From assembly GCF_030769565.1 (NCBI RefSeq), contig NZ_JAVCAP010000031.1:62001-126000 (forward strand): a stretch of 64,000 nt of DNA. Direction: 5' to 3'. The notes beneath the pieces were generated by a model, which made no database searches, had not been told where the DNA came from, and saw only the letters and a list, made by a program, of their open reading frames with translations. Origin of the DNA: Methylophilus aquaticus (GTDB lineage Bacteria > Pseudomonadota > Gammaproteobacteria > Burkholderiales > Methylophilaceae). The position numbers were made by a program, and so were the translations under genes. The stretch's first letter is position 1; each line of letters starts with the position of its first letter. Positions 548 through 44,709 of this stretch are shown here, piece by piece.

Positions 548-1006
548 ATGAAAAAAATCCTCACACTTACTTTTTTAGCCATTAGTTTTTCTGGTGCCGT
601 CCATGCAGACACTTTGCTGCAAACCGCCCAGCAAGATGGCAGCTTTAAAACCTTTTTAAAAGCGGTCAAAACAGCAGGGCTGGAGAGCACCTTAAACGGC
701 AGCGGCCCCATCACCGTATTTGCCCCGGATGATGCTGCTTTTGCCAAGTTACCCAAAGCCAAACTCAACGCTTTAATGGGCAATAGCGCTGAACTCAAAA
801 AGGTACTTTCTTACCATATATACCCCGCTAAAATCACTCAGGCTGACGTGAGCGCAGGAAAAGTCAAATCACTTGAAGGCGCCGATTTGCAGCTCTCGGT
901 AACCGATGGTGTAAAAGTGAACAACGTGGCGGTGGTAGGGAATGAAATCAATGCGGATAATGGTGTGATTCATACCATGAGTGCGGTGCTGACTCCGAAA
1001 AACTAG
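548..1006 (+). CDS. Secreted fasciclin (FAS1) domain protein
   Basis: This 152-residue protein has a clear Sec signal peptide (MKKILTLTFLAISFSGAVHA, cleavage after HA) followed by a single FAS1 domain. Diagnostic blocks are TVFAPDDAAFAKLP (FAS1 box H1) near residues 57-70 and NGVIHTMSAVLTP at the C-terminus (box H2). FAS1 domains mediate adhesion or ligand binding; the bacterial role is usually unknown. AGGAG lies upstream of the ATG and two hairpin terminators follow the stop. It stands convergent to a TonB receptor remnant, and a decayed copy of its 3' end lies at 7885-8000 beside the next TonB receptor. This suggests that fasciclin and receptor/FecR/FecI genes were an ancestral unit. Family call is firm, ligand unknown. 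Confidence 0.9.
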   Translation: MKKILTLTFLAISFSGAVHADTLLQTAQQDGSFKTFLKAVKTAGLESTLNGSGPITVFAPDDAAFAKLPKAKLNALMGNSAELKKVLSYHIYPAKITQADVSAGKVKSLEGADLQLSVTDGVKVNNVAVVGNEINADNGVIHTMSAVLTPKN

Positions 1007-1035
1007 TGTACATCTTTGTAGCTGTTACCTAATTT

Positions 1036-1065
1036 GAAAAGGCCTTGTTTTAATAAGGCTTTTTC
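1036..1065 (+). terminator. Rho-independent terminator after the fasciclin gene
   Basis: AAAAGGCCTT pairs with AAGGCTTTT across a short A/T-rich loop and is followed by a T-run, about 30 bases after the fasciclin stop codon. Confidence 0.65.
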
Positions 1066-1081
1066 TAACTTATTGTAGGGT

Positions 1082-1106
1082 GCAGAAACTATTTCTGCTT
1101 GTTTTT
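1082..1106 (+). terminator. Second hairpin with T-run
   Basis: GCAGAAA-CTA-TTTCTGC is a perfect 7-bp stem with a 3-base loop, followed by TTGTTTTT. It fits a backup terminator for the fasciclin gene. Confidence 0.55.
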
Positions 1107-1132
1107 AAGTCATTAAGTTTTTGTTTTAAAAA

Positions 1133-1228
1133 CTAGTCTGGCACAAAGTGCCAGTTCAAGCTAAACCAGACTCTACGCGGTGTACCCGGAGCCACAAAGT
1201 TGGTACTTAACCAATCATCTGTATTCTA
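1133..1228 (-). pseudogene. Remnant of a TonB-dependent receptor 3' end
   Basis: The minus strand encodes the last ~31 residues of a receptor: TDDWLSTNF, then VAPGTPRRVWFSLNWHF and a terminal VPD before TAG. This closely parallels the C-terminus of the intact receptor whose stop lies at 2429 (SDDWLSTNFIAPGAP...HFVPD), with scattered nucleotide differences. Upstream of about 1228 the frame meets a stop and similarity ends. It is therefore the tail of another receptor paralogue, not a fresh copy. The rest was lost, with a RAYT gene and an IS110 remnant now next to the break. Confidence 0.75.
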
Positions 1229-1261
1229 GGGTGAGGTCTAGCTATATAGCATTCTTGCAAC

Positions 1262-2101
1262 TTACATAGCCTGCCTCACCACCCTCCCCACAGTAGTGAA
1301 ATGGATTTCAAAGTAATCTGCGATGTCCTGGTATGAATACGCACCTGTCGCATAAGCACGCCTGATCGCCGCATTTCTATCAGGTGTTTCATTTTGAATT
1401 TGACGCAATGATGGTGGGAGTGGGCGGCGTTGCACAAAAAGGATCTGCACGTCGTCGCGATGTTCTGCCGTTAAACATTCTTGCATGCGCTGCACAAAAG
1501 CTTCATCGCCCAAAAAAACCTGCCCTTTGATCTGCTGCCACGGTGAGTCAGCTTGCATGCCTTCTGCAACAAATTGCGCATAACGCGATTGAGCGAGGCT
1601 GCGCTGTTCAGCAAATGTTGCTAACAAATCATCCAGCGCCAACCATGCAGTCGGGGCTGTCAAGCCAACAGTTGCACTATAACTGCTCCATGCCCACTCA
1701 GCAGGCGTTTCAACCATACCCGCCCGCACCGGATTGAGCACCACATACCGCGATAACTCCAGCAAATAGGCATCACTATCCACTAAAATAGCTTTAAAAC
1801 GACCCTGAAAAAGATGCCCAACACGGCGATGGCGTCGATTGCTGGCCTGGGTGTAAACACCGTTCAATTGCCGCATTCCCTTTGAAAGGTTTCCATCTGG
1901 CGTTTGAATCAACAAATGATAGTGGTTATCCATCAAACACCATGCATAACACAGCCAGTTAAACTGTCTAATCACCTTCTCCAAGGTTTGCAAAAATACG
2001 CGCCTATCCTCATCATCTTCAACAATATCCTCACGCCGATCACCACGCGCAGTGACGTGATATAAGGCACCTGGAAAGGCTATGCGGACGGGACGGGACA
2101 T
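1262..2101 (-). CDS. REP-associated tyrosine transposase (RAYT, Y1_Tnp/IS200-like)
   Basis: From MSRPVRIAFPGALYHVTARG the protein (about 279 residues) shows the Y1 HUH transposase signature. The HUH motif is HYHLLIQT near residue 70, the GHLFQGRFKAILVD block follows, and the catalytic tyrosine lies in the YVVLNPVRAG block. The C-terminus (about residues 230-279) is a helix-turn-helix segment (YSYQDIADYFEIHFTTVGRVVR). RAYTs are single-copy chromosomal enzymes that act on REP/BIME palindromes by nicking and joining single-stranded DNA. The ATG at 2101 gives the family's usual N-terminus; the longer in-frame start at 2119 is less likely. No REP palindrome flanks the gene, but REP-like elements occur at 13502, 47661 and 48504. 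It sits between a receptor remnant and an IS110 remnant. Confidence 0.88.
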   Translation of the reverse strand: MSRPVRIAFPGALYHVTARGDRREDIVEDDEDRRVFLQTLEKVIRQFNWLCYAWCLMDNHYHLLIQTPDGNLSKGMRQLNGVYTQASNRRHRRVGHLFQGRFKAILVDSDAYLLELSRYVVLNPVRAGMVETPAEWAWSSYSATVGLTAPTAWLALDDLLATFAEQRSLAQSRYAQFVAEGMQADSPWQQIKGQVFLGDEAFVQRMQECLTAEHRDDVQILFVQRRPLPPSLRQIQNETPDRNAAIRRAYATGAYSYQDIADYFEIHFTTVGRVVRQAM

Positions 2102-2145
2102 GGAAAAAAGTATAACCAATGTTAAGAGTTTATGCTACATAGCAA

Positions 2146-2382
2146 GACCCCGTATGCTTTGCACTATACATGCAAGGGATGGTAGCTTTACGACATAATC
2201 CTGCGTTACAGGTCTTTGGTGAGAGAATGCGGTCAAACGGGCTGGCACCTAAAGCGGTGATCGGCGCGGTGATGCGAAAATTGGTGCATTTGATTTACGG
2301 AGTAATTAAGTCAGGCAAACCTTTTGATGCAGAAATTCCACTCAAGGGGCTTGCAATTCAAGACGGTATCTGACCCCGTATG
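2146..2382. repeat. 11-bp direct repeat bracketing the IS110 remnant
   Basis: GACCCCGTATG occurs at 2146-2156 and again at 2372-2382, at either side of the IS110 transposase fragment. It could be a target duplication or a recombination footprint; chance cannot be excluded. Confidence 0.4.
2150..2373 (+). pseudogene. IS110-family transposase, C-terminal remnant
   Basis: The frame encodes ALYMQGMVALRHNPAL, then a stretch with VMRKLVHLIYGVIKSGKPF and the end LAIQDGI. This is the characteristic end of the Transposase_20 domain of IS110-family enzymes, including the serine-containing C-terminal region. The DEDD N-terminal domain is missing and the ATG at 2170 lies inside the domain, so it is a fragment and not a functional gene. 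It lies just upstream of the RAYT start, in the opposite orientation. Confidence 0.75.
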
Positions 2383-2428
2383 TTCTTGCCTCCTCGAAAA
2401 CCGGGGCGATTCAGTGCGAGGCATGTTG

Positions 2429-5400
2429 CTAATCAGGGACAAAGTGCCAGTTCAAACTAAACCAGACTCCTCGTGGCGCTCCCGGAGCAATAAAGTTTGT
2501 ACTTAGCCAATCGTCTGAGTTGTGGTTATAACCATCAGGTCCAATCGCACCATTAATACTTGGTGAGAAAGGATTACGGCCCAATCGACCTGCTGTGAAA
2601 TACTCTCTATCAAAAATATTGTTAATTAATAGATTCGCTGTCCACTCTTTGCTTAACCGGTAGCTCGTTCTAAAATTGAAAACTGCATAACCTGGCACAG
2701 TGCCCGGGTTACTAGTCGGGCGTCGCTGTGCATTACCAACGGCCCCCAATCCACGATCTTGTACCACACCCACCCGGTGCCCATTATTTTCGTTGCCTCG
2801 CACATAACTATCAGAATGCAGCACTGCAGATAGACCTACAGTCCATGCATCAGTAAAATCATAACTAAGATTTGCGTTCATATTGTGTAAGGAGACACCA
2901 GGTATTCGATCTCCCTTTTCTACCTGAATAACATTGCCGTAACCATTTAGGAAATAGGAACTACTATTGTCATTACTAATCATCAAAAAGTTGTTTTCAA
3001 ATGTCGCATCTGTGAGTGAATAATTGACACTCATTCCCCATTTATCTTTTCTACCAGATACACCCGCTTCAATCCCCCTGCGTCGAGTATTTCCAATACT
3101 GTCAAAAAAACCTGCACCATTGCCAACTGACACAAAATAAATATCATCCTTTAAGTCGGTTTGATAAGCACCAAGATTCCACTGCATATTTTCAGCGAGC
3201 TTTCCACGTAAGCCAATGTCATAAGTAGTTGCTTTTATTTGAGGTAGAAAAGGGTCTCCAGATAAGGTTGTAGGCAACGTACATTGACGATTTTCAACAA
3301 TGCTTTTTGGCCCTAATCCTCCACCATTACTAGCGACCAACGTATCATCGAACGCACATCCCAGCTCCACTACGCTTGGAGTCCTAGTGCCTTGTGCAAA
3401 GTTGGCATATAAATTCAGCGTTTCTTTTGCCTGCCAGCTGACTCCCAAAGAGGGGTTTAAGGAGTAATAACTGAACTTTTCAGTCTCAGCTTTATTTAAA
3501 GTATTAAAAATTCTCGGAGTTCTAAAATTTGCTGGAACTGTTGAACAATCATCAGCATCCACATCCCCATCACCGTCTACATCAGTACAAATGTTATATG
3601 CGTCAGGCAAACCGATCAGATCACCAATCATATAAGCACCGCGTCCATACCTAGCTGCAATTTTGTTCTTGGCGATGGTTTGGTTGTATCTTGCAGATGT
3701 ATTGATATGAAGTGTGTCTATTGGTGTCCAGGTCTCACTAAAGTAAATGCTTTTTGTAATATTGGTTCCGCTAAAGTTATTATTAGAAATTGGAAGCTGT
3801 GCACCGATAAACTGTGGGTGCGCTTGACTCGGGTCTAGATACGCTTCACGGTCAGCAGTTAAAAAACCTAATTGACTAGTATTTTTATAAGTGGCGTCCG
3901 CTGCATCAATGGACATACCAACCATGACCTTGTGATGCTCAAGATTCCAATTTAATTGGAGTGAGGCACCATTTACTATTTGATTGATTTTATTATCATT
4001 AATGATTGCTGTTGGTGTACCTTCAACCACTCCTGGGAACCCTGTTCCATCCGCTTTATAGCCCCCAGTTGCACCATCAACGAATACCGCATTTCCATCA
4101 CTATCAACAATACTATAAGGCTTCCCCTGAACCCCATCTAATGCACGTGTCGCATTACAATTGATGGCATTCACTGGCGCGGTCAAAACCAATTGATATT
4201 TAATCAAATCACCCGTAACGTCATCAGTTTTGTAATAGTACAAGTCATTGATGCTATCGGGATTCAGTACATTATCATCGGGGCCATTTACGTTATAAGC
4301 ATTACCATTAGGAAAAGTGGACCCCCCTGACATGTAAGATGCCACAGAGTTTCCAAAGGCATCCAGGATTTGAGGCCCTTCCGTTACAGGCGCAGGATTG
4401 TCCCTGTTATAAACAAGACTCTCACGCTCATTTCTCCAGTAATCAAAAGTTTGCTTAAGTAATTTTGCATAGTCCTCATCCAGATCTACATTCTTGTACT
4501 GGTTAAACGAGGTAACTTGGAAGTTATTACTGTTATATTCGTTAAAAAAATCACCTGCAACTGATCCAGGTATATAAAGATTTTCTCCAGCTGTTTCATT
4601 AATCGGAATCAAATAGTAATCAGGAATTCCGTATTTATTGTCTGGCGAACTGGCAAATAAACACGCATATTGCTCTCCCGTTGCTGGCAATCTCCGTGCG
4701 TAAACCGCATTATCATTCCAGTCGGTAAAAACATCAGACCCAACCTGATGACGCTTACTATTCCTGCGATATACCTGACCGGTGACAGTGAAACTGTCAT
4801 TCACGAAATAGCTTCCAGACAATTGAAATTGAGCCAGTTGATTCTTGGTAGTATCTGGTGAGGTATATACACTATTGCGATCTTGAGAATACATTTGTGA
4901 TGGCAGCATTCCATTACCAGTCAAATCAGTTTGCACTAGCAGAGTGCTTAAATTCAGGTCTAATTTATCCCCTCTGTAACTAGCTTTCGTAAATAATTGA
5001 TTCACTCTGCTTGGTGAGTTTTCCCGCCAACCATCTTCTAAAAAGAAATTTCCTGCCGCAAATAATCCAACAGTGCCATTATTCCATCCACCCTCAGCTT
5101 GCAGTTGCTTCCTTCCAAAAGAGCCGGTGAGAATATCAGCATCCAATCCAGCATTATTAAAACCATCTTTAGTTTTCATAGAGAATGCGCCACCCAATGT
5201 ATTTAACCCAAAGATTGGATTTGAACCCGGAAATACATCAACACCAGCCAAGGCATTCATGGGAATCATGTCCCAATTCACTACATCACCAAATGGCTCA
5301 TTTATACGAATACCATCCAAGAAAACGCTCAAGCCCTGCGGCGTACCTATCTGTGGACCAGCAGTAAAACCGCGGTATTGCACATCCATCTGAAACGGGT

Positions 5401-5962
5401 TGCCCTGGTAATCATTCACCGTTACTGACTGCAGCTTACGGTTCATGAGATCCGTGATACTTAACGAATGTGCCTCTTTGATTTCTTTAGCAGAAATGCT
5501 TTGCACGTTGCCAGGAATTTCCTCCCTCGTTAAACCCAAACCTGGTAATGGCCCTACTTCATAAAACCGCTTTGCGCGCACTTCGACTTTATCCAGTTCA
5601 ATGTTTTCCGCTTTCTTTTGTACAACCGGGCGGGCAGTGCGGATGACGATGGTATTTTCTTCTTCGTAGGCTTCAAGGCCAGAATTTTCAAGTACGCGTT
5701 TCAGCGCTTCCATCTCTGCATAGTTGCCTTGCACAGGGGGGGAGACTTTGCCGTTGACCAGGGTTTTATCGTAGAGGATGTTTTTGCCGGTTTGGGTGGC
5801 AAATTGTTTGAGCGCGTTGCCCAGTGGTTGCGAGGGGATATTGATATTGGCTGGAATCCCCATTTTGAGCGGCTCTGCACCTACCGCTTGCATGTGGTAC
5901 ACCGCGCATACCACTAGCGCAGATTGTTTGCTGAATTGCTTTAATTTTTTTGTTTTGAACAT
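2429..5962 (-). CDS. Large FecA-type TonB-dependent receptor (paralogue 1)
   Basis: From MFKTKKLKQF the protein has 1177 residues, far longer than the usual 700-900. It has a signal peptide (cleavage near AVGA), then an STN domain (about residues 35-95) that contacts a FecR anti-sigma factor. The plug follows (EIPGNVQSISAKEIKEAH..., with FLDGIRINEPFGDVVNW), and then the barrel, ending in F-rich strands. Long inserts expand the extracellular loops. One carries CTDVDGDGDVDADDC (about residues 792-806), an acidic EF-hand/dockerin-like loop between two cysteines. FecR and FecI genes lie directly upstream on the same strand, so expression is probably induced by surface signalling. The nearest relative in the window is the receptor at 8073-11792, with nearly identical plug motifs. 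The ligand is unknown; a metal chelate is likely by family. A longer frame upstream lacks a signal peptide at its start. Confidence 0.9.
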   Translation of the reverse strand: MFKTKKLKQFSKQSALVVCAVYHMQAVGAEPLKMGIPANINIPSQPLGNALKQFATQTGKNILYDKTLVNGKVSPPVQGNYAEMEALKRVLENSGLEAYEEENTIVIRTARPVVQKKAENIELDKVEVRAKRFYEVGPLPGLGLTREEIPGNVQSISAKEIKEAHSLSITDLMNRKLQSVTVNDYQGNPFQMDVQYRGFTAGPQIGTPQGLSVFLDGIRINEPFGDVVNWDMIPMNALAGVDVFPGSNPIFGLNTLGGAFSMKTKDGFNNAGLDADILTGSFGRKQLQAEGGWNNGTVGLFAAGNFFLEDGWRENSPSRVNQLFTKASYRGDKLDLNLSTLLVQTDLTGNGMLPSQMYSQDRNSVYTSPDTTKNQLAQFQLSGSYFVNDSFTVTGQVYRRNSKRHQVGSDVFTDWNDNAVYARRLPATGEQYACLFASSPDNKYGIPDYYLIPINETAGENLYIPGSVAGDFFNEYNSNNFQVTSFNQYKNVDLDEDYAKLLKQTFDYWRNERESLVYNRDNPAPVTEGPQILDAFGNSVASYMSGGSTFPNGNAYNVNGPDDNVLNPDSINDLYYYKTDDVTGDLIKYQLVLTAPVNAINCNATRALDGVQGKPYSIVDSDGNAVFVDGATGGYKADGTGFPGVVEGTPTAIINDNKINQIVNGASLQLNWNLEHHKVMVGMSIDAADATYKNTSQLGFLTADREAYLDPSQAHPQFIGAQLPISNNNFSGTNITKSIYFSETWTPIDTLHINTSARYNQTIAKNKIAARYGRGAYMIGDLIGLPDAYNICTDVDGDGDVDADDCSTVPANFRTPRIFNTLNKAETEKFSYYSLNPSLGVSWQAKETLNLYANFAQGTRTPSVVELGCAFDDTLVASNGGGLGPKSIVENRQCTLPTTLSGDPFLPQIKATTYDIGLRGKLAENMQWNLGAYQTDLKDDIYFVSVGNGAGFFDSIGNTRRRGIEAGVSGRKDKWGMSVNYSLTDATFENNFLMISNDNSSSYFLNGYGNVIQVEKGDRIPGVSLHNMNANLSYDFTDAWTVGLSAVLHSDSYVRGNENNGHRVGVVQDRGLGAVGNAQRRPTSNPGTVPGYAVFNFRTSYRLSKEWTANLLINNIFDREYFTAGRLGRNPFSPSINGAIGPDGYNHNSDDWLSTNFIAPGAPRGVWFSLNWHFVPD

Positions 5963-6053
5963 ATGCGTCCCCGTCACCAAAAGTCGTCTTACAACTGGAT
6001 TGACGGGCAGAACGCAAACTCCCTGACGTGCAAAAAGTAAATTTTTATTATTT

Positions 6054-7031
6054 TTAACGATCGACCACAGCGGTCTGCGTGTCGGACTCCTCAAGTTTGA
6101 CCGGGGCGACAGACGGCAGTGCTTTCACAAACTTGTTGAGGGATTTTACATCGACCACCGCCGAGATTGGCGTGCGGGTGGTGGATTGGTTAACCACGGG
6201 CGGTTGGCGATAGCGGGAGAGCGTTTCGGTCACCTCTGCGATGGCCGCACCATCAAAGATGAGCCGACCTTGCAGAAAGGCAAACGCATCTTTGGCTGAT
6301 TTTTGCAGTGGCAACGGCGCAGAGTGGGCTTTTACCTCTGCAACCTGGTCGTTGGTCAGCAACACGCTGCCAGGCTGCCCGCTGGCGAGTGACTCCACCA
6401 GCACTTTGCCATGATCAACAGCCACCACAGTTTTGTGATTGATCATATTCACCAGGAAGCGGGTGCCTTTTACCGTGATTCTGGCGTGAGCACTTTCTAC
6501 CACAAAAGGTCGATCAGCGTCTTTCACCACCTCAAACACGGCCTGGCCTTGCAGTAATTTGACGTAGCGCTTGTCACGATAATAGAGCACCTGGGTCTGG
6601 CTTTGTGCATCCAGTACGAGTTTGCTGCCGTCAGACAGGTAATGTGTCACCATTTGTCCTGGTGCACTGGCTTGCGCAATCGTTTCCAATGGTTTGTCAT
6701 GCCAGTTTTGCCAGGTGTTAAAGCCGAATATCCCCGAAATAGATAGCATCACTAGGGCACCTAATTTAGCCAGTTGCGTTGTTTTGTGCCGTTTGCGGAT
6801 ATCGTCATCCAGTTTTTTCATCGACATCGCCTGCGAAAGCTGCTTGATGTGCTCAGAAGAGTCAAAGTCCTCCCAGGTATCTGCAATGGTTTGGTAAGCC
6901 TCCCGGTTGACTGCAGAAGACATAAGCCAAGCTTCAAACTTGCTACGGTCAACATGGTCTGGTGCGGCATCCTTCATGCGCAAAAACCATTTGGAGGCTT
7001 GTTCAAGCACACTGTTTTTGGACTTGATCAT
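6054..7031 (-). CDS. FecR-type anti-sigma/sigma-regulator protein (locus 1)
   Basis: At 325 residues it has the standard FecR length. The cytoplasmic N-terminal DUF4880 part has ASKWFLRMKD and SKFEAWLMSS (sigma-binding). A single membrane helix follows near residues 88-105, then the periplasmic FecR domain with DGSKLVLDAQSQ, VVDGKVL-like repeats, GTRFLVN and FDGAAIAEVTETLSRY. It relays the loaded state of the STN receptor to the sigma factor. Its start lies two bases after the stop of the sigma gene, which indicates translational coupling, and the receptor starts 91 bases downstream. Cognate pairing is inferred from gene order. Confidence 0.92.
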   Translation of the reverse strand: MIKSKNSVLEQASKWFLRMKDAAPDHVDRSKFEAWLMSSAVNREAYQTIADTWEDFDSSEHIKQLSQAMSMKKLDDDIRKRHKTTQLAKLGALVMLSISGIFGFNTWQNWHDKPLETIAQASAPGQMVTHYLSDGSKLVLDAQSQTQVLYYRDKRYVKLLQGQAVFEVVKDADRPFVVESAHARITVKGTRFLVNMINHKTVVAVDHGKVLVESLASGQPGSVLLTNDQVAEVKAHSAPLPLQKSAKDAFAFLQGRLIFDGAAIAEVTETLSRYRQPPVVNQSTTRTPISAVVDVKSLNKFVKALPSVAPVKLEESDTQTAVVDR

Positions 7032-7033
7032 AC

Positions 7034-7588
7034 TTATTCGCCAAGCAAGTGGCGTTTTGCCAGCGCAATATCTACCAGCGCGCGTATCATATGTTTTTCT
7101 ACCATGTTGAGGCTGATCTTGAGATCAGTGGCAATGTCGGTTTGCGCCATCCCCTCAATCCGGTGCAGCCAAAATACCTGGCGACATTTGGGAGGTAGGC
7201 AGTCAATGATATTTTGCAACGCCTGCATGCGTTGCTTGATATCTGCAATTTTTTCGGGAGAGTGCTGGTAGCTCAACTCCTGCTCAGGTGACTGAATTTC
7301 CTGGTCACTCGTCTGGCTGATATCAATAAAATAGGCAGCCTCTCGGTAATGGTCAATGATTGTATTTTTGACGATACCGCGCAAATACGCATGCGGCTTA
7401 TGAATCTGCTTGAGACTGTTTTTGACCGCAAACTTGACAATCGCATCATGCAACACATCGTTTGCCACATGCACATTTCTCGTCTGCCGATAAATGCTGC
7501 TGAACAATTCCGTATACACCCACTTAAGGTTAAGGTTGCTCCAGTAAAAATCAGTATTGGCTTGAGTAAAAAAGCGCATAGAGCTCAA
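7034..7588 (-). CDS. ECF sigma factor, FecI-like (locus 1)
   Basis: This 184-residue protein has sigma region 2 (VANDVLHDAIVKF, LRGIVKNTIIDHYR) and region 4 (LPPKCRQVFWLHRIEGM, then the helix-turn-helix DIATDLKISLNMVEKHMIRAL). It lacks regions 1 and 3, as FecI-type ECF factors do. It is the first gene of a sigma-FecR-receptor operon and should direct transcription of the receptor gene. The start at 7588 or the ATG three codons later are both possible. No convincing Fur box was seen upstream, unlike the third FecIR locus in this window. Confidence 0.92.
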   Translation of the reverse strand: MSSMRFFTQANTDFYWSNLNLKWVYTELFSSIYRQTRNVHVANDVLHDAIVKFAVKNSLKQIHKPHAYLRGIVKNTIIDHYREAAYFIDISQTSDQEIQSPEQELSYQHSPEKIADIKQRMQALQNIIDCLPPKCRQVFWLHRIEGMAQTDIATDLKISLNMVEKHMIRALVDIALAKRHLLGE

Positions 7589-7884
7589 CCAGCTTGCTTA
7601 GATAAATATAAACCTAATGCAATATCTATGCCGTTTAATGGAATGATTCTAAGTAATTGATTTTTAATAGATGTTGAAAATTGGCGGCTTGTAAAACTGG
7701 TTTATTTCAACTTGTGCCTGGTTGAAAACAACCAATTTCCATATTGAGAGTGATGTTTGAAGATGCATGCGTAGCCGCCAAACAGTAGTGAAAATAGCAA
7801 AGGCATCTTCGGGTTTTGCACGTTATGGCGCTAGCGAAAGGACGATAGCTTAATAATAATCGGCTGGTCAATAACCCCGATGAT

Positions 7885-8000
7885 ATTCGTGACTTGGTTA
7901 CCAATGGTGTAAAGCTAAACAGCATGACGGTGGGGATGAAATCAATGCTGATAATGGTGTGCTTCACACTATGAGTGCGGTGTTGATTCCGAAAGGCTAG
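7885..8000 (+). pseudogene. Decayed 3' fragment of a fasciclin gene
   Basis: The sequence from TTGGTTACCAATGGTGTAAA to the TAG at 8000 matches the last ~38 codons of the fasciclin gene at 548-1006. Shared blocks include ATGAAATCAATGC and ATAATGGTGTG, followed by ATGAGTGCGGTG. Small deletions shift the frame midway, and no upstream FAS1 part remains. It lies convergent to the second large TonB receptor, exactly as the intact fasciclin gene lies convergent to the receptor remnant at 1133. It marks an ancestral duplication. The rest of the interval 7589-7884 shows no gene and probably holds the promoter of the FecI operon. Confidence 0.75.
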
Positions 8001-8020
8001 AGCGTTAATCATTTGATAAT

Positions 8021-8064
8021 TTCATTTGCAGAAGTGTTGTTTGATCAAGGCTTCTACAAATGAA
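8021..8064. terminator. Inverted repeat at the end of the second receptor operon
   Basis: TTCATTTGCAGAAG pairs with CTTCTACAAATGAA (one mismatch) across a 16-base loop, just downstream of the receptor stop at 8073. Adjacent T/A-rich sequence is modest, so a bidirectional terminator is likely but not certain. Confidence 0.45.
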
Positions 8065-8072
8065 AAGCGCTT

Positions 8073-11000
8073 TTATTCAACCAACCCCTCCAGCTTTTTA
8101 GGTTGAAACTCATAACTCAACGTCACGAAAGCCGACCGCGGTGCACCGGTTCCTAGAAAGCTGGTTCCTTGCCAATCGGCGCTGTTATAGTTGAAGCCGC
8201 TTTCACCAATAACGCCTCTAATAGACGGAGAGAATGCGTTTAAACCAAGGCGCCCCGCGCTGGCATATTCTTTATCAAACAAGTTGTTAATGCGTAGGCC
8301 GAATGTCCACTCAGGGCTGATTTTGTAGGTAGTGTTGAAATTAACCACGGCATAGCCATCTGTTTTACCTTCACCAAAGTCAGCACGCTGGATCGTACAG
8401 ACTGTATTACCATTGTCACAAAATGGCCCCGTAATCGGTGAAGCTGGGCCAGCTCGATGTTTATTGTTTTCATTGCCTCGAATAAATGCATCGGAATGTG
8501 CAACTACATTTAAACCTACCCGCCAGGCGTTGGTGATGTCATAGCTGACATTTGCATTTAGGTTATGCAACGCAACGCCTGGCATACGGTCACCAGGATT
8601 AACTGTAATTTGTTGATAGTTACCCTCACCCGTTTGGGTCACAATATCGTAGACGTTCCCGGCACTACTATTACTAGGGCTAGCAAGCTTGAGTTTGGAC
8701 TGAAAAGTAGCGTCTGTGAGCGCATAGTTCACCCCCCAGCTAGCCTTGCCCCATTTCCCTTTCAGCCCCATTTCAAGGCCGCGCCGACGTGTATCTCCAA
8801 CATTCTGAAAATAACTACTGGTGGCATTCACCGCAACGAAATAAATATCGTCTGTTAAATCAGTTTGATATAAGGCAGCATTCCACTCAATACCATCTGT
8901 CAATTGACCTCGAGCACCAAGCTCATAGCTAGTAGACCTGACTTGCTTCAGATAAGGGTCCCCTGATAAGGCTCCTGGAAGATTGCATACACGCTGCTCA
9001 GCCAATGAACGAGGACGGCCGTCTGATAGAGGCGTCGGATCATAAGCGCAACCCAACTCAATCACGGTTGGTGTTCTAGCTCCACGACCCAAATTGGCGT
9101 ACAGATTCAAGTCTTCACGTGCTTGCCACGTAATACCGAGGGATGGATTAAATGAGCGATACTTGAACTTCTCTTTTTCTGGCGGACGGAGAGTCGCAAT
9201 ATTCTGACCATTGGCATCTACCGGGAATGTGCTTGGATCAAATGGCACGATTTGATCTGCTATACCAGTAGGGCACTCAGTATTTGGGTCTATCGTGCCA
9301 TCACTGTTGTTGTCCGTGCAAAGTACCATCGCATTAAGATAGTTAAGGATGGTATTTACATCCGTAAATGATGAGAGCCTTGCAACAGAAAGCTGGTTGT
9401 TAACGTAAGTGCGGTTATAGCGAGCAGAAGTAGTAATATTAAGTGTTTTGGTAGGAGACCAAGTCTCGCTGAAATATAGACTCTTGGTCAGACCACTCCC
9501 TTTAAAGTCGTTTAAGCCATATCCCCGATCAGGGCTATTTGCGTAATACTCCCAACCTAAAAGCTCAGGTGCCACATAGGCATTGCGTTGTGCATCAAGC
9601 ATGCCGAGATATTGCTTACTTTCATAGGTTGTATCCGCTTTATCAACTGAGCTACCGATCATGAACTTATGTTTATCGAGGTTCCAGTTAAATTGTAATG
9701 AGGCCCCCTTTCCCAATTGGTCAACTTGAGTATCAGTAAAGATAGCGGTTGGTGTACCTTCTATATAACCGGTATTTGCGTAAGGGCCACTAGCATATTT
9801 GCCATCGCGATAATAAAAATTTCCGTTGGCATCTTGGGCTAATGGTCCCATGGTAGAGATATAGGACAATCCGCCTACGGCACCAACTTGATTAGTGATA
9901 TTCGCACTATTAATCGGAACCACTAGCTCCCAATAATCATGAAAGAAGCCAGCATCGTCTGTGTATCCGCCCAATGCTCCAATATTTGGTGCTGAAGAAA
10001 TAATGTCATAGCTATATTCGCTACTCCCCGTTCCGGGATGAAGAGTACTGCTGCTGACAGCTGCACCATTGGCACTAGCCACAATAAGTCCATAATTTTC
10101 AAATGCGTTACGAACTATCTGCACATACTGATTGGTGACTGCTGCATTAAATGCACCAGGTACATTTGATGGCTGAGATATATCATCCAAGTTTCGTCTA
10201 GGATCGTAAGTCCAATTCCAAACAAGATTTCCTGAACCATCGCCTGCTGCAACCTGTACCTGATTTGCATTCGCTTGCGTATTGAAGTTTGTTCCATAAG
10301 CGAGATCGTTCACACAAGGATCAAGAGGATCCGTACAAATTGCACCACTTGTTGTTAAAGGGTTGCCATTCGCATCCGCAGCCACATTCATAGCATAGTT
10401 GTTATAGTCGGGCAGTCCGTCGCGGTTAATGTCAGGCAAACCATTTAACAATTGGCGAGAAGGATCATTAATGGTAGCGGCATTTGGCCTTGCACTGGTC
10501 CCCCCAAAGTTCTCATTCACATCTGACATATGTGATTTGCGCTTGCTATTTCGGTTATAGACCTGTGCCGTGATGTTGAAGGTATCTGTCACATCCCATA
10601 TACCTGATAGCTGGAATTGAAACAGGTTGTTTCTGCTCTCATCAGGAGACGTATAAACTTGCTTCGGGTTTTGATCGACCATTTGCTGCGGAAGCAAACC
10701 GTTACCCGTCAATTTATTTCCAGCATACAAGCCAGAAAGACTAAGTCTGGCGCGCTCATTTTGCCACTCGGCCTTACCAAATATCTGGTTGACCTTGCTT
10801 GGAGAGTTGTCTCGCCAACCATCCTCAAGGAAAAAATTGCCAGATAAGAAACCTGCGATCACACCATTATTGTTACCAGCGGATATTTGCAGCTGTTTAC
10901 GGCCAAATGAACCTGTGAGCACTTCGGCATCCAGCGTTTTTCCATCAAAACCACTCTTGGTACGCATGGCTAAGGCCCCGCCTAAAGTACCCAAGCCAAA

Positions 11001-11792
11001 CACAGGATTAGAACCAGGGAACATATCCAGACTGGCTAACGCGTTCATGGGAATCATGTCCCAGTTCACCACATCACCAAAGGGTTCGTTAACACGAATA
11101 CCGTCAAGAAATACTGAAATACCTTGTGCTGTACCAAGTTGCGGGGAAGCGGTAAAACCGCGATATTGCAAATCCATCTGGAATGGATTGCTTTGGTAAT
11201 CATTGACTGTGACTGATTGAAGCTTCTGGTTCATCAAATCAGTGATTGTGAGCGTGTGCGCCTCTTTAATGTCTTTGGCTGTAAGGGATTGCACATTGCC
11301 AGGAATTTCTTCTTTTGTGAGCGCAAGACCAGGCATGGGGCCTACCTCATAAAACTTCTTGGCGCGGACCTCAACCTTGTCTAAATCAAGACTGGTTTTT
11401 TCGTCTTTTAGCTCTTTGGATGTTTTTGTTGCGGGTTGAATATAAAGGGTTGATTGGTTGAGCTTGGCTTCAAGATTGTTGTTCGCGAGTAATTTTTTAA
11501 ACAGCTCTTTTGTCAGCATGGTGCCGCTGATGGCCGGTGCTTTTTTAACATTGACTAAAGCGTCATTGAATGTGATGTTGATACCAAGTTTTGCGCTGAT
11601 GGCTTTTAACGAAGTTGCTAGCGGCTGACTAGGCAGATCTATTGATATTGTGCGTGTAAAAAGTATTTCTTCTTCGGGTTGTGGCAAATTGGTATTAAGT
11701 TCTGCTGCCCATAAAGGATTGATCCAGACTGGCTGGCTACTAAAGCAGGCAGCGATGGCTGCGCTCAGAATCAGTTTTTTTGGTGTGTGCAT
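8073..11792 (-). CDS. Large FecA-type TonB-dependent receptor (paralogue 2)
   Basis: This 1239-residue protein has a signal peptide, an STN domain (about residues 45-115: ISIDLPSQPLATSLKAISAK), a plug (EIPGNVQSLTAKDIKEAH, FLDGIRVNEPFGDVVNW) and a long barrel. It is clearly paralogous to the receptor at 2429-5962, most strongly in plug and C-terminus. Its extracellular inserts differ in sequence but again contain an acidic loop between two cysteines (CTDNNSDGTIDPNTEC, about residues 823-838). A second Dx[DN]xDG stretch (DINRDGLPDYNN) lies near residue 450. FecR and FecI homologues lie upstream on the same strand. Import of a scarce metal complex with induction through surface signalling is inferred; the actual ligand is unknown. 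Confidence 0.9.
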   Translation of the reverse strand: MHTPKKLILSAAIAACFSSQPVWINPLWAAELNTNLPQPEEEILFTRTISIDLPSQPLATSLKAISAKLGINITFNDALVNVKKAPAISGTMLTKELFKKLLANNNLEAKLNQSTLYIQPATKTSKELKDEKTSLDLDKVEVRAKKFYEVGPMPGLALTKEEIPGNVQSLTAKDIKEAHTLTITDLMNQKLQSVTVNDYQSNPFQMDLQYRGFTASPQLGTAQGISVFLDGIRVNEPFGDVVNWDMIPMNALASLDMFPGSNPVFGLGTLGGALAMRTKSGFDGKTLDAEVLTGSFGRKQLQISAGNNNGVIAGFLSGNFFLEDGWRDNSPSKVNQIFGKAEWQNERARLSLSGLYAGNKLTGNGLLPQQMVDQNPKQVYTSPDESRNNLFQFQLSGIWDVTDTFNITAQVYNRNSKRKSHMSDVNENFGGTSARPNAATINDPSRQLLNGLPDINRDGLPDYNNYAMNVAADANGNPLTTSGAICTDPLDPCVNDLAYGTNFNTQANANQVQVAAGDGSGNLVWNWTYDPRRNLDDISQPSNVPGAFNAAVTNQYVQIVRNAFENYGLIVASANGAAVSSSTLHPGTGSSEYSYDIISSAPNIGALGGYTDDAGFFHDYWELVVPINSANITNQVGAVGGLSYISTMGPLAQDANGNFYYRDGKYASGPYANTGYIEGTPTAIFTDTQVDQLGKGASLQFNWNLDKHKFMIGSSVDKADTTYESKQYLGMLDAQRNAYVAPELLGWEYYANSPDRGYGLNDFKGSGLTKSLYFSETWSPTKTLNITTSARYNRTYVNNQLSVARLSSFTDVNTILNYLNAMVLCTDNNSDGTIDPNTECPTGIADQIVPFDPSTFPVDANGQNIATLRPPEKEKFKYRSFNPSLGITWQAREDLNLYANLGRGARTPTVIELGCAYDPTPLSDGRPRSLAEQRVCNLPGALSGDPYLKQVRSTSYELGARGQLTDGIEWNAALYQTDLTDDIYFVAVNATSSYFQNVGDTRRRGLEMGLKGKWGKASWGVNYALTDATFQSKLKLASPSNSSAGNVYDIVTQTGEGNYQQITVNPGDRMPGVALHNLNANVSYDITNAWRVGLNVVAHSDAFIRGNENNKHRAGPASPITGPFCDNGNTVCTIQRADFGEGKTDGYAVVNFNTTYKISPEWTFGLRINNLFDKEYASAGRLGLNAFSPSIRGVIGESGFNYNSADWQGTSFLGTGAPRSAFVTLSYEFQPKKLEGLVE

Positions 11793-11893
11793 CTGACTTC
11801 CCCGTTATTTTTTGGCTTGTTATTGCCTTAATGCACGGGGCGTCAAAACCCTGATATGTCGATTGCAAAAAAATGTAATGATACGAGCCAAGC

Positions 11894-12877
11894 TTATTTT
11901 GCTTGAGTGTAGGTTTCCAGTTGAATGCCTTCTGGGCTGCGGTGGACGCGGACATTGGCGATGCGTGGCAAGGTGGCGATAAAGCTGTTGCTATCTTTAA
12001 TGGCGACCACTGCGCTGATTTTCTCCTCTGAGCGATCATCGTTGGTGATGGGTTTTTGTTGGTAGCGAGAGACCGTTTCGGCGATTTCTGAGAGTGAGGC
12101 TTGGTTAAATACCAGTGTGCCGGTCATAAAGCGGAAGTAGTCTTGGGCGTTCACTTGCGGGCGGGTTTGTAAACCATGCTGGTTGATTTCTGCTACCTGG
12201 TTATTTTGCAGAATCAGCGCTTGCTGGCCTTGCTTGTTGAGCACTTGCACTTTGCCGTGATCGACGCTGACACGCTCAAGTTGTTTGAGCTTGTTGACGG
12301 CAAACCGGGTGCCCAGCACGGTGACTTTAAGTCGCTGGGTTTCTACCACGAAGGGGCGGCTGCGGTCTGGTTGCACTTCAAACACGGCTTCGCCTTGCAG
12401 CAGGTCGATGTGGCGCTGATTGCGGTAATACTTGATCTCAATGCGCGAGTTGGCGTTGAGCGTAACACGGCTGCCATCGTCCAGGGTTTGCGTGGTGAGT
12501 TGGGCAGTGCTGGTATGTGCAACCAACTGCATGGTTGGGGTGGCTTGCCATGCTTGATATTGATGGTAGCTTGCCCAGCCGATGCATATCGCAGCGACCA
12601 CGCTGGCCACAGTCCCAGCCAGCTTTTGGCGGGCCTTTTTGCGCTCGCTTTGTTTGAAGAAGCGATCTGCTTTTCTAGCTGTTGCCAGGGTTTGCAGTTC
12701 GTCCAGTGAGTCCAACCCACGCCAGGCTTCACTGATGCTCAGGTATTCCTGCTGGTGTAGCGGGCTTTGCATCAGCCAGGCTTCAAACTGGCTGCGTTCC
12801 GGCGCATCGACGGGGGCTTCCTGCATGCGGATAAACCAGCGGGCAGCGGTTTCACTGATTTTGTTGGGCGCAGGCAT
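11894..12877 (-). CDS. FecR-type anti-sigma/sigma-regulator protein (locus 2)
   Basis: This 327-residue FecR homologue has the N-terminal ARWFIRMQEAP and SQFEAWLMQSP sigma-contact segment. A membrane helix lies near residues 87-106 (GTVASVVAAICIGWASY). The periplasmic FecR domain includes LDDGSRVTLNANSRIEI, GEAVFEVQPDRSRPF, GTRFAVN and FNQASLSEIAETVSRY. Its ATG overlaps the sigma gene stop by one base (TAATG), so the two are translationally coupled. It should connect the receptor at 8073-11792 with the sigma factor at 12877-13374. Confidence 0.92.
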   Translation of the reverse strand: MPAPNKISETAARWFIRMQEAPVDAPERSQFEAWLMQSPLHQQEYLSISEAWRGLDSLDELQTLATARKADRFFKQSERKKARQKLAGTVASVVAAICIGWASYHQYQAWQATPTMQLVAHTSTAQLTTQTLDDGSRVTLNANSRIEIKYYRNQRHIDLLQGEAVFEVQPDRSRPFVVETQRLKVTVLGTRFAVNKLKQLERVSVDHGKVQVLNKQGQQALILQNNQVAEINQHGLQTRPQVNAQDYFRFMTGTLVFNQASLSEIAETVSRYQQKPITNDDRSEEKISAVVAIKDSNSFIATLPRIANVRVHRSPEGIQLETYTQAK

Positions 12878-13374
12878 TATTTTAAAAATTGTTCTCTGGC
12901 GGCGCGAATGTCGAGCAGGGCGCGGATTAAGTGGCGTTCAACCATGTTGACGCTGATATTGAGTTGGCTGGCGATGTCTTGCTGGGCATGGCCTTCAATC
13001 CGATACATGACAAACACTTGTCGGCAGCGCGTGGGTAAATCCTGAATAATCTGCGTGACGAGTTCCAGGCGTTGGCGGATATCCGCCAGGTGTTCGGCAG
13101 AAACAGCGGCGGGTTCTTCCAGGTCTGCCTGCTGCTGATATTCGTGAAAGTAGCTGTCTTTGCGGTATTGCTCCAGAATCAGGTTTTGGACGATGGTGCG
13201 CAGGTAAGCATGCGGTTCGGCGTCCCGATTCGGGCTGGTGGTCAGCGCAAAGCGCAGGAAGCCATCGTGCAAAATGTCTTTGGCTGCATGCGAGCACAGC
13301 GTTTTGCGCTTAATGCTGGGCAGTAAGGTGCTGTATGCCCAATGTAGGTTAATGCCATGCCAGAACATCATCAT
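12877..13374 (-). CDS. ECF sigma factor, FecI-like (locus 2)
   Basis: This 165-residue ECF factor has region 2 (AAKDILHDGFLRFAL, YLRTIVQNLILEQYR) and region 4 (LPTRCRQVFVMYRIEGHAQQD and the helix NISVNMVERHLIRAL). It parallels the FecI at 7034-7588. It is first in the operon FecI-FecR-receptor. No Fur-box-like sequence was found upstream. Confidence 0.92.
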   Translation of the reverse strand: MMMFWHGINLHWAYSTLLPSIKRKTLCSHAAKDILHDGFLRFALTTSPNRDAEPHAYLRTIVQNLILEQYRKDSYFHEYQQQADLEEPAAVSAEHLADIRQRLELVTQIIQDLPTRCRQVFVMYRIEGHAQQDIASQLNISVNMVERHLIRALLDIRAAREQFLK

Positions 13375-13501
13375 CGATCAAAAGTGGATTGCCATGGCTG
13401 GATTAGGCAAAGATCGTACCGTTTTGGTGAATACATGGTGTTTTTATATTAAGTTTAGACTTTTGCACGAAATGAACGCATTCCTAAAAATGCAACGTTT
13501 T

Positions 13502-13528
13502 GTCATCCTAGCGAAAGCGAGGGTCCAT
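13502..13528. repeat. Half of a REP-like palindromic element
   Basis: GTCATCCTAGCGAAAGCGAGG followed by GTCCAT matches one arm of the REP units at 47661 and 48504 (GTCATTCCCGCGAAAGCGGG plus AATCCAT). The second arm is absent. It is the main recognisable feature of the otherwise gene-free interval 13375-13854, which also holds the metG promoter. Confidence 0.55.
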
Positions 13529-13663
13529 ATAAGTGATTGATTAAAATATATTTATGCGTTCTATGGAATGAAAGGGTGCTGGTAATTTCGTCAAAAATAG
13601 CCTGTTTTTTTAGTGTGTACAAAAGTCTTAAGTGGATGATGATTATTTAGTTACGATAAAAAC

Positions 13664-13703
13664 GCTGATTGCTGACGCTGCGCTCAGAGTGGTTGCAATC
13701 AGC
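13664..13703 (-). terminator. Inverted repeat, possible minus-strand terminator
   Basis: GCTGATTGC and GCAATCAGC form a perfect 9-bp inverted repeat around a 22-base loop. On the minus strand it is followed by GTTTTTAT. No minus-strand gene now ends here, so it may be a leftover of a lost gene or a regulatory hairpin upstream of metG. Confidence 0.3.
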
Positions 13704-13854
13704 CGTCTTGGTTGATATTAGCCAGTGCCGGATGCTATTTCAGCGCAGGGCAAGCCCCATTTTTTTAAATAAACCTTGCGCAATGGCACGCCAACACGCT
13801 GAAACCGCTGCTGGTTTGCTAAAATAGACGCTTTTAGTTTTTGGTTACGGTGTC

Positions 13855-15909
13855 ATGACACGCAAAATTCTGGTCACTTCTGCACTCCCTTATGCCAATG
13901 GCAGTATTCATTTGGGGCATCTGGTTGAATATATTCAAACTGATATCTGGGTGCGCTTTCAAAAAATGCAGGGGCATACTGTGCATTATGTGTGCGCAGA
14001 CGATACGCATGGCACGCCGATTATGCTGCGTGCGGAAAAAGAGGGCATTACACCAGAAGCGTTGATTGAAAAAGTGCATGCCGAACATAGCCAGGATTTT
14101 GCTGATTTTCTGGTGCAATTTGATAACTACTATTCCACCAACTCCGAAGAAAATCGTGCGCTTGCCTCGGGCATTTACAAAGCCCTTAAAGCCAATGGCA
14201 AAATTGCCACTAAAACCATAGAGCAATATTTTGATCCGGTGAAAACCATGTTTTTGCCGGATCGCTTTATCAAGGGTGAATGTCCGAAGTGCCATGCCAA
14301 AGACCAGTATGGCGATAACTGTGAAGTCTGTGGTGCGACCTACAGCCCCACTGATCTGATTAATCCGTTTTCAGCGGTGTCCGGTGCGACACCCGTGCGC
14401 AAGGAAACTGAACATTACTTTTTTAAACTGAGCGAGTGCGCAGACTTTTTGCGTGACTGGACCAGATCTGGCACCTTGCAAGCCGAAGCTGCCAACAAAA
14501 TGAGCGAGTGGGTAGGTGAGGCGGGAGAAAACAAACTTTCAGACTGGGATATTTCACGCGATGCGCCGTATTTTGGCTTTGAAATCCCCGATGCACCCGG
14601 CAAGTACTTTTACGTGTGGCTGGATGCGCCGATAGGCTATATGGCCAGCTTTAAAAATCTGTGCAGCAAAGCCGGTATTGATTTTGATGAGTATTGGAAA
14701 AAGGATTCTTCAACCGAGTTGTACCACTTTATCGGCAAGGATATTCTGTATTTTCATGCCTTGTTCTGGCCAGCCACGCTCGAATACAGCGGGCATCGCA
14801 CGCCCACGCAGGTATTTGCCCATGGTTTCTTGACCGTCAACGGTGAAAAAATGTCCAAGTCGCGTGGTACGTTTATTACGGCACGCAGTTATCTTGATCA
14901 TGTGCAGAATCCTGAGTATTTGCGTTATTACTATGCCGCCAAGTTGAATGGCAGCATGGAAGACATCGACCTCAATCTTGAGGACTTTGTGGCGCGGGTG
15001 AATAGCGACCTGGTGGGTAAATATATCAATATCGCCAGCCGTACTGCCGGTTTTGTCGCCAAAAAGTTTGATAACCGGTTGACGTTGCCAAGCCATAGTG
15101 TCATTGATGACATGCGTGCGGCGGCACCTGCGATTGCTGAAGCCTATGCCGCCCGTGATTTCGCACGCGCGTTACGCGAAATTATGAAATTGACTGATGC
15201 TGCCAATGCTTATGTCGCAGACACAGCGCCATGGGTGCTGGCCAAGGATGACAGCAAAACAGCCGAGCTGCATGCGATTTGCAGCAATGCGCTGGAGATG
15301 TTCCGTCTGCTGACCATTTTTCTGAAGCCAGTATTGCCGAATATTGCGCAAGCTGTAGAAACGTTTCTCAATGTTTCGCCGCTGCAATGGGCGGATGTGG
15401 CGACGGGTCTGGGTGCGCAACAGATACAGGCCTACAATCATATGATTACCCGCATAGAGGGCAAGCACATCGAAGCCATGGTCGAAGCCAATAAGGAGAG
15501 CTTGCAGCCGGAAGCCAAACCAGCTGCGACAGAGACCAAACCTTTATCGTCTGCGGACGAAATTGCGCATGATCAAGCTGAGTACATTTCGATTGACGAC
15601 TTTACCAAAATTGATTTGCGCATTGCCAATATTGTCAGTGCCGAGCATGTGGAAGGCGCAGAAAAGTTGCTTAAATTGATGCTGGATATTGGCGAAGAAA
15701 AGCCGCGTCAAGTGTTTGCCGGAATTAAGTCAGCTTATGATCCGGCGACGCTAGTCGGGCGTCTGACCGTGATGGTGGCTAACCTTGCCCCGCGCAAAAT
15801 GAAGTTTGGGATGAGTGAGGGCATGGTGCTTGCGGCCAGCGACGAACGTGGAGGGCCTTATATTCTTGCGCCTGACAGTGGAGCGCAGGCGGGAATGCGC
15901 GTGAAATAA
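13855..15909 (+). CDS. metG: Methionyl-tRNA synthetase
   Basis: This 684-residue enzyme charges tRNA-Met with methionine. It has the HIGH-type motif [11 protein letters not shown] near residue 14 and a zinc-binding knuckle [18 protein letters not shown] near residues 143-160. The catalytic KMSKS motif lies near residue 331. A C-terminal tRNA-binding OB-fold domain (about residues 575-684: [21 protein letters not shown]) is typical of the dimeric form. Length and domain order are normal. The ATG lies inside TCATGACACGC with no strong Shine-Dalgarno. It is monocistronic by position, followed by a MITE-like element. Confidence 0.97.
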
Positions 15910-15941
15910 ACGATCACTTTGAGGGGTGGTTTTTTGTAAAA

Positions 15942-16080
15942 GGCATCTCTAATAATGCATATGCCGTCGCGATACTGTGTTGCTCATAAAAAAATTCTCC
16001 TTACATATTAACTATGTGCGGCGTCTAAATTTTTAAATCGCGTCAAGGCTAGCTTAGCAATTTGAATTATTAGAGACGCC
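15942..16080. mobile_element. MITE-like element derived from an insertion sequence
   Basis: Terminal inverted repeats GGCATCTCTAATAAT (15942) and ATTATTAGAGACGCC (16066) match at 14 of 15 positions and bound 139 bp. Read on the minus strand, the interior holds AAGGAG, a T-run and a start codon for MSNTVSRRHMHY, which then hits a stop at the far repeat. The element therefore looks like an IS reduced to its two ends plus the ribosome-binding site and first codons of its transposase. The ends resemble IS5-type elements, but the family is uncertain. No clear target duplication was identified. It fills most of the metG-ccoI gap; the remaining 180 bp are A/T-rich and should contain the ccoI promoter. 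Confidence 0.7.
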
Positions 16081-37993: not shown

Positions 37994-38703
37994 GCCTGTC
38001 CTTGATACAATTGTTTGAGGCTATCCAGCGTTAGCGTGGACTGATCCAGCAACACTGGCTGTAATTGGCCGTTGGCCAACATCAGCAAGCGGTCAGAAAA
38101 TGCCATGGCAGACAGCACATCATGGGTTACTACCAGCACGCCCATGCCCTTTTTTTTGCATTGTAAAATCAGCTGGTTAAGCTCTTCGGTGGCTTGCGGG
38201 TCCAGGCCTGAATTGGGCTCATCCAGCAGCAATAGTTTTGCCTGCTTTGCCAGCGCCAGTGCCAGCATGACCTTTTGTTTCATGCCTTTTGAATATTCAC
38301 TGCATGGGCGTTGCCAGGCGTGCGCTGGCAATCCCACCATGTCCAAATAGGCTGAAATCTCCATGGTGGGTGTGACCGCCGCCAGGCGCAAAAAATAGCC
38401 AATATTTTCGATGGCAGACAAATGGCCGTAGACCGCAGGCTGCTCTGGCACATAGGCCAGTTGTGCCAACGCCTGTGGCCGCGCCTGTTGAATATCAAGC
38501 CCGGCAATCAGAATCTGGCCGCTTTGATCCACACCGGCATCATGCAGGCCAAGAATGCTCTTGAGCAGTGTGGATTTGCCTGCACCGTTGCTGCCCAATA
38601 CCGAAACCACTTCACCGGCGTGCAGCGTGAGCGCAAGCTGTTGCAAAATATCGCGCCCGGCAAAGCGCAGACTGAGTTGCGCAATGGATAATAATGCGGT
38701 CAT
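37990..38703 (-). CDS. ABC transporter ATP-binding protein (ABC-2 type)
   Basis: This 237-residue ATPase has a Walker A GSNGAGKSTLLKS near residue 38, a Q-loop YVPEQPAVYG, the signature block YSKGMKQKVMLALAL, Walker B LLLLDEPNSGLD near residue 160 and the H-loop VTHD. The GMKQK form of the signature is typical of NosF/CcmA-like ABC-2 exporters. It overlaps the receptor stop and the permease start by four bases each, so the whole set is translationally coupled. Confidence 0.9.
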   Translation of the reverse strand: MTALLSIAQLSLRFAGRDILQQLALTLHAGEVVSVLGSNGAGKSTLLKSILGLHDAGVDQSGQILIAGLDIQQARPQALAQLAYVPEQPAVYGHLSAIENIGYFLRLAAVTPTMEISAYLDMVGLPAHAWQRPCSEYSKGMKQKVMLALALAKQAKLLLLDEPNSGLDPQATEELNQLILQCKKKGMGVLVVTHDVLSAMAFSDRLLMLANGQLQPVLLDQSTLTLDSLKQLYQGQA

Positions 38704-40748: not shown

Positions 40749-40852
40749 GATGTTTCTTCCCTGTAAGTGATGTTTCAAAATGAATTACTGTTGTGATGTC
40801 TCGCTTGCAGCGCCAGCATTGTGCCACCAGGATTCTTTTTAGCTTTTACTAT

Positions 40853-40871
40853 TTAAATAAGAATCATTATA
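40853..40871. promoter_or_regulatory. Fur-box-like site upstream of the receptor operon
   Basis: AAATAAGAATCATTAT lies within a 19-base window matching the Fur consensus GATAATGATAATCATTATC at 13 positions by hand count. It is 105 bases before the receptor start. Nothing else was recognised between 40749 and 41011. Confidence 0.5.
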
Positions 40872-41011
40872 AATTGGCCGCCAAGCGTTTTTGATGAAAA
40901 ATGCGGGGCATTATTAAAAAAAAACACTGCATGGACGCTGTGTATCGATTGTGTGATCTGGTGTCTCATTGATGTGCATATGCATGTATGCAGGCGCTTG
41001 AACGGGCAGGC

Positions 41012-41689
41012 TTACCATATTGCGTCCAGCGCCAGCACCACGCGTGTGCTCCCTGTTTCAATCTGCGGCGAGCGATGCACCGCGCCTGCATGCTGGTTGC
41101 CTTGCCATAGGCTGCCTTTAAGCAATACCAGCGCTTGCTCGGATGCTTGACAGATCCCCTGCGGGTGCACAATCAGGGCCTGATGAAATGCTTCCAGTGT
41201 GCTGTTCGGTGTTGCAAAGGCGTTTCTGTTGCAATACGCTTCGTCCAGCCATTCGGTGCCAGGTCCAAGATAGGTGCACAGTAGACGGATGCCTGTACGG
41301 TCAATATGAAACTTGGGGCACATGGCCTGTGACAGTACTTCCAGCCGCAGGCCGATATGTGGGCAATCCAGCAAATCGGCGTAAACGGTGGCTATGTGTG
41401 CCATATCCGCGAGCAAAGCCTCTTTGCCGTGCCCGACAACCAGTGCCAATTGACTGGCCAATTGCGGCTGGATCGCCTGCCTTGTGTTGAGCACCATACG
41501 GTAGCCCGGCACCATCTTATGGGCACTTTGTGCCAGATAGTGATGAATGGCGGGGTCGGGTGTGCGCGGCACCATACAGACTTGCTGCGCCTCCTCAAAA
41601 ATCGGCAGTAATGCCAGTGGATTAAAATGGGGATGCGCAGTGAGTCCATGCGGCGGCGTGGGTGGCGCGACATCTCTGACGGCGAGCAT
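41012..41689 (-). CDS. DUF1826 protein of a metal-homeostasis operon
   Basis: From MLAVRDVAPPTPPHG (GGAGGT upstream) the protein has 225 residues. It has the block FHIDRTGIRLLCTYLGPGTEWL (about residues 134-155), LKGSLWQGN near residue 197 and AVHRSPQIETG, the conserved region of DUF1826. The H-x-D and VHR elements recall a cupin-like oxygenase, but no activity is established. DUF1826 genes commonly neighbour COG0523 GTPases. Here the gene starts one base after the stop of such a GTPase and is the last gene of the operon. Confidence 0.8.
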   Translation of the reverse strand: MLAVRDVAPPTPPHGLTAHPHFNPLALLPIFEEAQQVCMVPRTPDPAIHHYLAQSAHKMVPGYRMVLNTRQAIQPQLASQLALVVGHGKEALLADMAHIATVYADLLDCPHIGLRLEVLSQAMCPKFHIDRTGIRLLCTYLGPGTEWLDEAYCNRNAFATPNSTLEAFHQALIVHPQGICQASEQALVLLKGSLWQGNQHAGAVHRSPQIETGSTRVVLALDAIW

Positions 41690-41690
41690 G

Positions 41691-44703: not shown

Positions 44704-44709
44704 TTTTAA

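Follow-up and report, generated by a model that had tools for sequence, protein, structure and literature searches.

The two outsized TonB-dependent receptors near the start of the window (the whole 64,000-nucleotide stretch of a Methylophilus aquaticus contig analysed here) are FecA-type transducing receptors, each of which carries, in a predicted extracellular loop, an acidic loop with EF-hand spacing between two cysteines. They belong to a receptor family that co-occurs with a family of secreted proteins that appears to be undescribed.

Both receptors, P0001 and P0002 (48% identity), are encoded on the minus strand at window positions 2429-13374, in two tandem modules that each consist of FecI, FecR, and the large receptor (Table 1); the open frame of P0001 reaches as far as a TTG at 6094. 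They had been described preliminarily as STN-type receptors of 1177 and 1239 residues, and domain searches agree: the Pfam plug (PF07715) and barrel (PF00593) scored above cut-off in both, as did STN in P0001 (34.8 bits), and a weak STN match of 19.2 bits (E 0.0011) lies in place in P0002, under the cut-off of 28.4. Plug, barrel, N-terminal STN, and the linked ECF sigma factor and FecR together make up the transducing FecA type. Neither of two candidate ligands was supported by NCBIfam models, as P0001 and P0002 scored 45.2 and 28.4 bits against a cut-off of 1100 for ferric citrate (FecA, NF041676) and 71.3 and 102.1 bits against the equivalog cut-off of 1200 for PQQ (PqqU, NF041535). A PDB sequence search with P0001 returned distant TonB receptors only.

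Table 1. Positions in the window of the two receptor modules and of the loops discussed in the text
Feature	Position	Strand	Description
P0001	2429..5962	-	STN-plug-barrel TonB-dependent receptor, 1177 aa; AlphaFold2 model
Extracellular loop L6 of P0001	3488..3655	-	Residues 770-825 (model 653-708); from strand count on model
Cysteine-bracketed EF-type loop of P0001	3545..3589	-	CTDVDGDGDVDADDC; residues 792-806, 12-mer 794-805; in extracellular loop L6
Long insert of P0001 (extracellular loop L4)	4010..4729	-	Residues 412-651, ~240 aa
FecR-type anti-sigma regulator, upstream of P0001	6054..7031	-	PF04773 + PF16220
FecI-type ECF sigma factor, upstream of P0001	7034..7588	-	PF04542 + PF08281
P0002	8073..11792	-	STN-plug-barrel TonB-dependent receptor, 1239 aa
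Cysteine-bracketed EF-type loop of P0002	9273..9320	-	CTDNNSDGTIDPNTEC; residues 825-840; L6 by alignment
Second acidic loop of P0002	10398..10433	-	DINRDGLPDYNN; residues 454-465; L4 by alignment
FecR-type anti-sigma regulator, upstream of P0002	11894..12877	-	PF04773 + PF16220
FecI-type ECF sigma factor, upstream of P0002	12877..13374	-	PF04542 + PF08281

An AlphaFold2 model of P0001 (residues 118-1177; mean pLDDT 75.7) has, by our count, 22 barrel strands, with short turns alternating with long loops. Structure prediction had been proposed as a check of surface exposure, and the model places the cysteine-bracketed loop outside the cell, in L6, within a block of pLDDT 82-86; for P0002 the same placement comes from the alignment. 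As in EF-hands, a helix begins at loop position 10, although the full helix-loop-helix is lacking, with a strand before the loop and a 4-residue helix after it. A single insert, L4, accounts for most of the outsized length, as shorter relatives are without roughly model positions 420-640. Among the folds closest to the model are BtuB, FecA, and PqqU (Z about 34-35). BtuB shares the barrel-plug fold (VIA-align Z 35.3, rmsd 2.7, 543 residues aligned), but it is without an STN domain and the 240-aa L4 insert, and its calcium site, which is not of the EF-hand type, lacks a flanking disulfide like the one presumed in L6. It is a TonB receptor whose structure has been determined with calcium bound (1nqg and 1nqh, from their titles). 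FecA (Z 34.2) likewise has STN, plug, and barrel, with FecI and FecR upstream, but the L4 of P0001 and P0002 is far longer and their L6 holds the EF loop. PqqU (YncD) was the top Foldseek match of the model (9c4o, E 2.3e-35, TMt 0.80), yet it is far shorter (661 residues in 9c4o).

The acidic loop between two cysteines that had been noted in both receptors was found again in other members of the family when their sequences were aligned, and in exact register, but not as a general trait. Of 91 distinct homologues, 87 have the cysteine pair at one position and four have no pair; between the cysteines, an EF-type loop (defined as D-x-[DN]-x-[DN]-G-x-hydrophobic) is present in 24, and a shorter or non-EF stretch, often CPNGDC, in 63. 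The loop is thus dispensable for the basic function of the family, as 67 of the 91 homologues are without it. The paralogues P0003-P0005 in the same genome likewise have the cysteine pair and no EF loop. Two of them share the P0001 hairpin minus its insert (P0004 NICTDPPACTGV, P0005 NICTDAACTGV), and the loop of P0001 seems to have been inserted recently into a CTD..C hairpin. Where the loop does occur, it has the 12-residue ligand spacing of EF-hands, with Gly at position 6 and a hydrophobic residue at position 8: D at position 1, D/N at positions 3 and 5, and G at position 6 are each found in 24/24 loops, I/V/L at position 8 in 23/24, and D/E at position 9 in 20/24. The P0001 loop contains seven Asp, and that of P0002, together with six others, has one or two extra residues ahead of the closing cysteine, which puts T at position 12 in P0002. 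The strict 12-residue pattern was matched 16 times in the L6 loop and not once in the remaining ~108,600 residues, compared to about 0.04 matches in the L6 loop and 0.8 overall expected from composition when the homologues, which are related, are treated as independent. Dockerins, EF-hands, TSP type 3 repeats, and Excalibur domains are extracellular and share the 12-residue D-x-[DN]-x-[DN]-G-x-[ILV] spacing, and in the calcium loops of TSP3 and Excalibur a cysteine adjoins the loop. The receptors differ from all of these in having a single loop inside a loop of a beta-barrel receptor, with cysteines on both sides and no full helices. In the literature searched, of which coverage was partial, neither this receptor family nor a TonB receptor with an EF-hand loop in one of its extracellular loops was found to have been reported.

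The second acidic loop reported earlier for P0002 is also real, and falls in L4 by alignment. In 27 of the 91 receptors this site fits D-x-[DN]-x-[DN]-G, with one change on the tree, and every one of the 19 EF-bearing members of the P0002 clade has it; in most other receptors the position is occupied by uncharged residues, for example STNxYG. Related receptors of up to 1411 aa at L031, L055, L060, L074, and L078 have the L4 acidic site without the L6 EF loop.

Members of the family were found in a narrow range of hosts. A profile search recovered three further receptors of similar size (P0003-P0005) on another contig of the same genome, and a contig scan gave 68 related loci, for which the genus-named hosts are Methylophilus, Methylotenera, Methylobacillus, Methylovorus, and Methylophaga and the rest are metagenome-assembled genomes (MAGs) without a genus name. 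Among 150 genomes of the host family, 44 match and 41 have full-length receptors, the other three (G021, G038, and G125) holding shorter relatives only, of about 800-960 aa. Beyond the family, just three genomes of the wider order gave partial matches, 369 genomes sampled across the class gave no match apart from the own genome, and plasmid records gave plug-level relatives only. Within the samples searched, all hosts of full-length receptors are methylotrophs or MAGs without a genus name.

Within the family, conservation is distributed very unevenly along the receptor. Comparison of P0001 with four relatives gave plug identities of 90-99% and L4 identities of 28-48%, and the receptor at L054 (7935-11588) resembles that of L091 in L4 and L6 (63% and 84%), while L065 is the closer match for its plug and first strands (98% and 90%); this receptor is therefore best read as an exchange of the extracellular part, likely by recombination. 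A nearly invariant plug with a variable face is expected if paralogues are tuned to different ligands, and, taken with the exchangeability of that face, the several paralogues, and the dedicated FecIR pairs, it fits ligand-specialised uptake and signalling. We put it at about an even chance that these proteins are FecA-like transducing receptors with an outer face that varies to suit a protein or metallophore ligand, and that the stapled loop holds a metal, most likely Ca2+, which shapes the binding surface. Each receptor would sense and import its own ligand, most probably a secreted protein or a metallophore, and report it via FecR to FecI, with the plug staying nearly the same and the extracellular face (mainly the ~240-aa L4, and L6) varying strongly and able to recombine. 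In a subset of receptors, L6 would present a 12-residue EF-hand loop in which a putative disulfide staple replaces the flanking helices, and P0002 and its clade would have an additional EF/TSP3-like site in L4. The L6 loop would most likely take Ca2+ from the medium, and the bound ion would hold the ligand-binding mouth in shape, as calcium does in BtuB. Because an EF loop on its own usually has a low affinity for Ca2+, occupancy of the loop is uncertain, and the loop may stabilise the receptor instead of recognising the ligand.

The ligand might also be a protein, or its cargo, that the cells themselves make or share, as for HasR and HasA. A secreted protein of about 330 aa with conserved cysteines and no Pfam family (e.g., at L009:9999-13268, with further sequences in L013-L075) is present in 39 of the 41 genomes with full-length receptors and in none of the 109 other genomes of the family, and was absent from about 290 genomes sampled across the order's other families. 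Of 94 distinct receptor genes checked, 27 have its gene immediately downstream, and it is often followed by an RTX protein and then by type I secretion genes (two ABC proteins, HlyD, and a TolC-like protein) or genes assigned to type II secretion from a reading of their sequences. This companion or the RTX protein would be the carrier, with the metal loop in contact with it, which is compatible with the explanation preferred above, and L4 is long here, as it is in receptors for protein ligands. HasR, which is among the fold matches, has its own sigma/anti-sigma pair and is genetically linked to a secreted protein and type I secretion, as receptor genes are here; the companion differs from HasA in being a beta-sandwich family without a known relative. 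P0001 and P0002, however, have no adjoining companion gene, the sole copy found in the genome lying beside P0003, and the companion model, a confident beta-sandwich (pLDDT 86.2), has no fold match that would reveal a cargo: fold searches gave nothing at E < 0.001 and a best Z of 6.7, within the usual background, and a PDB sequence search gave no match. We regard such HasR/HasA-like import as possible, though clearly the less probable account. The co-occurrence nevertheless makes a receptor for a metal-loaded protein more plausible than before. The preliminary suggestion of a receptor for a metal or a metal-loaded protein thus stands insofar as the EF spacing, the predicted extracellular position, the recurrence of the loop, and the methylotroph hosts agree with it; its lanthanide branch gained nothing over calcium, and most homologues are without the EF loop.

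Alternatively, the acidic loop may have no function as a metal site and reflect drift, or surface variation driven by phages or bacteriocins, in a tolerant disulfide hairpin. The loop is short, surface exposed, and missing from most relatives, and the L4/L6 region in which it lies changes fastest and bears signs of exchange. Yet the EF positions are exact while the rest of L4 and L6 diverges, strict matches are confined to this loop, and this pattern originated or was transferred repeatedly. On an unrooted tree, built by a quick search with a simple model, at least four changes of the EF state are required, in the P0002 clade as a whole (19 receptors), P0001, L012/L087/L091, and L054, a count that pools gains and losses. 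With three states coded, the tree needs 7 changes, compared to a mean of 25 with shuffled labels. An independent origin of all EF loops, which we had considered, is weakened by L054 and its exchanged extracellular part. We judge it unlikely that the loop has no function as a metal site.

Lanthanides are another candidate for the bound metal, in which case the receptors would recognise Ln3+, an Ln-loaded protein, or a lanthanophore for lanthanide-dependent methanol dehydrogenase. Every named host is a methylotroph, the others being MAGs without a genus name. The EF-hand loops of lanmodulin have D at position 9 and E at position 12, as do loops such as DNNNDGTIDASE, and the P0001 loop is rich in Asp. 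However, calmodulin-type loops can have D9/E12 too, so that Ca and Ln sites are not told apart by sequence, and the proline at position 2 that is typical of lanmodulin occurs in 0 of the 24 L6 loops. LanA and LutH, other TonB receptors for lanthanides, have been reported in methylotrophs (PMC12482762), and the present receptors resemble them in being TonB receptors of methylotrophs. Against this, no known lanthanide gene was seen adjoining the receptor pair in the window, and the literature searched, with partial coverage, held no link of this receptor family to lanthanides. We consider lanthanide sites improbable, and we give very little credence to the most elaborate combination, a methylotroph-specific uptake route in which a scarce metal, perhaps a lanthanide, is captured by a protein family that leaves the cell through type I or type II secretion and that the large receptors then bind via metal-bridged, disulfide-stapled EF loops.

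If the L6 loop does bind a metal, as in the preferred Ca2+ reading, it would represent an EF-hand stripped to the loop alone and held by a disulfide within a transport receptor, and such a loop would have been gained or exchanged repeatedly at a single position. For researchers of methylotrophs, the co-occurrence of receptor and companion offers a concrete candidate uptake system, for which the ligand can be sought directly.

At the site marked by metG and a fasciclin-domain gene (window 548-16000; L023, L044, L048, L050, and L057), the FecI-FecR-receptor modules differ between Methylophilus strains, some with the EF loop and some without it, as if this were an exchange site. Judged from sequence, a REP-associated-type transposase lies just downstream of P0001 (window 1262-2119). 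Elsewhere in the window (38700-44724), one gene run, likewise judged from sequence, encodes a 692-aa TonB receptor, two CobW-like GTPases, and a ZIP-like transporter, a gene content that suggests zinc acquisition.
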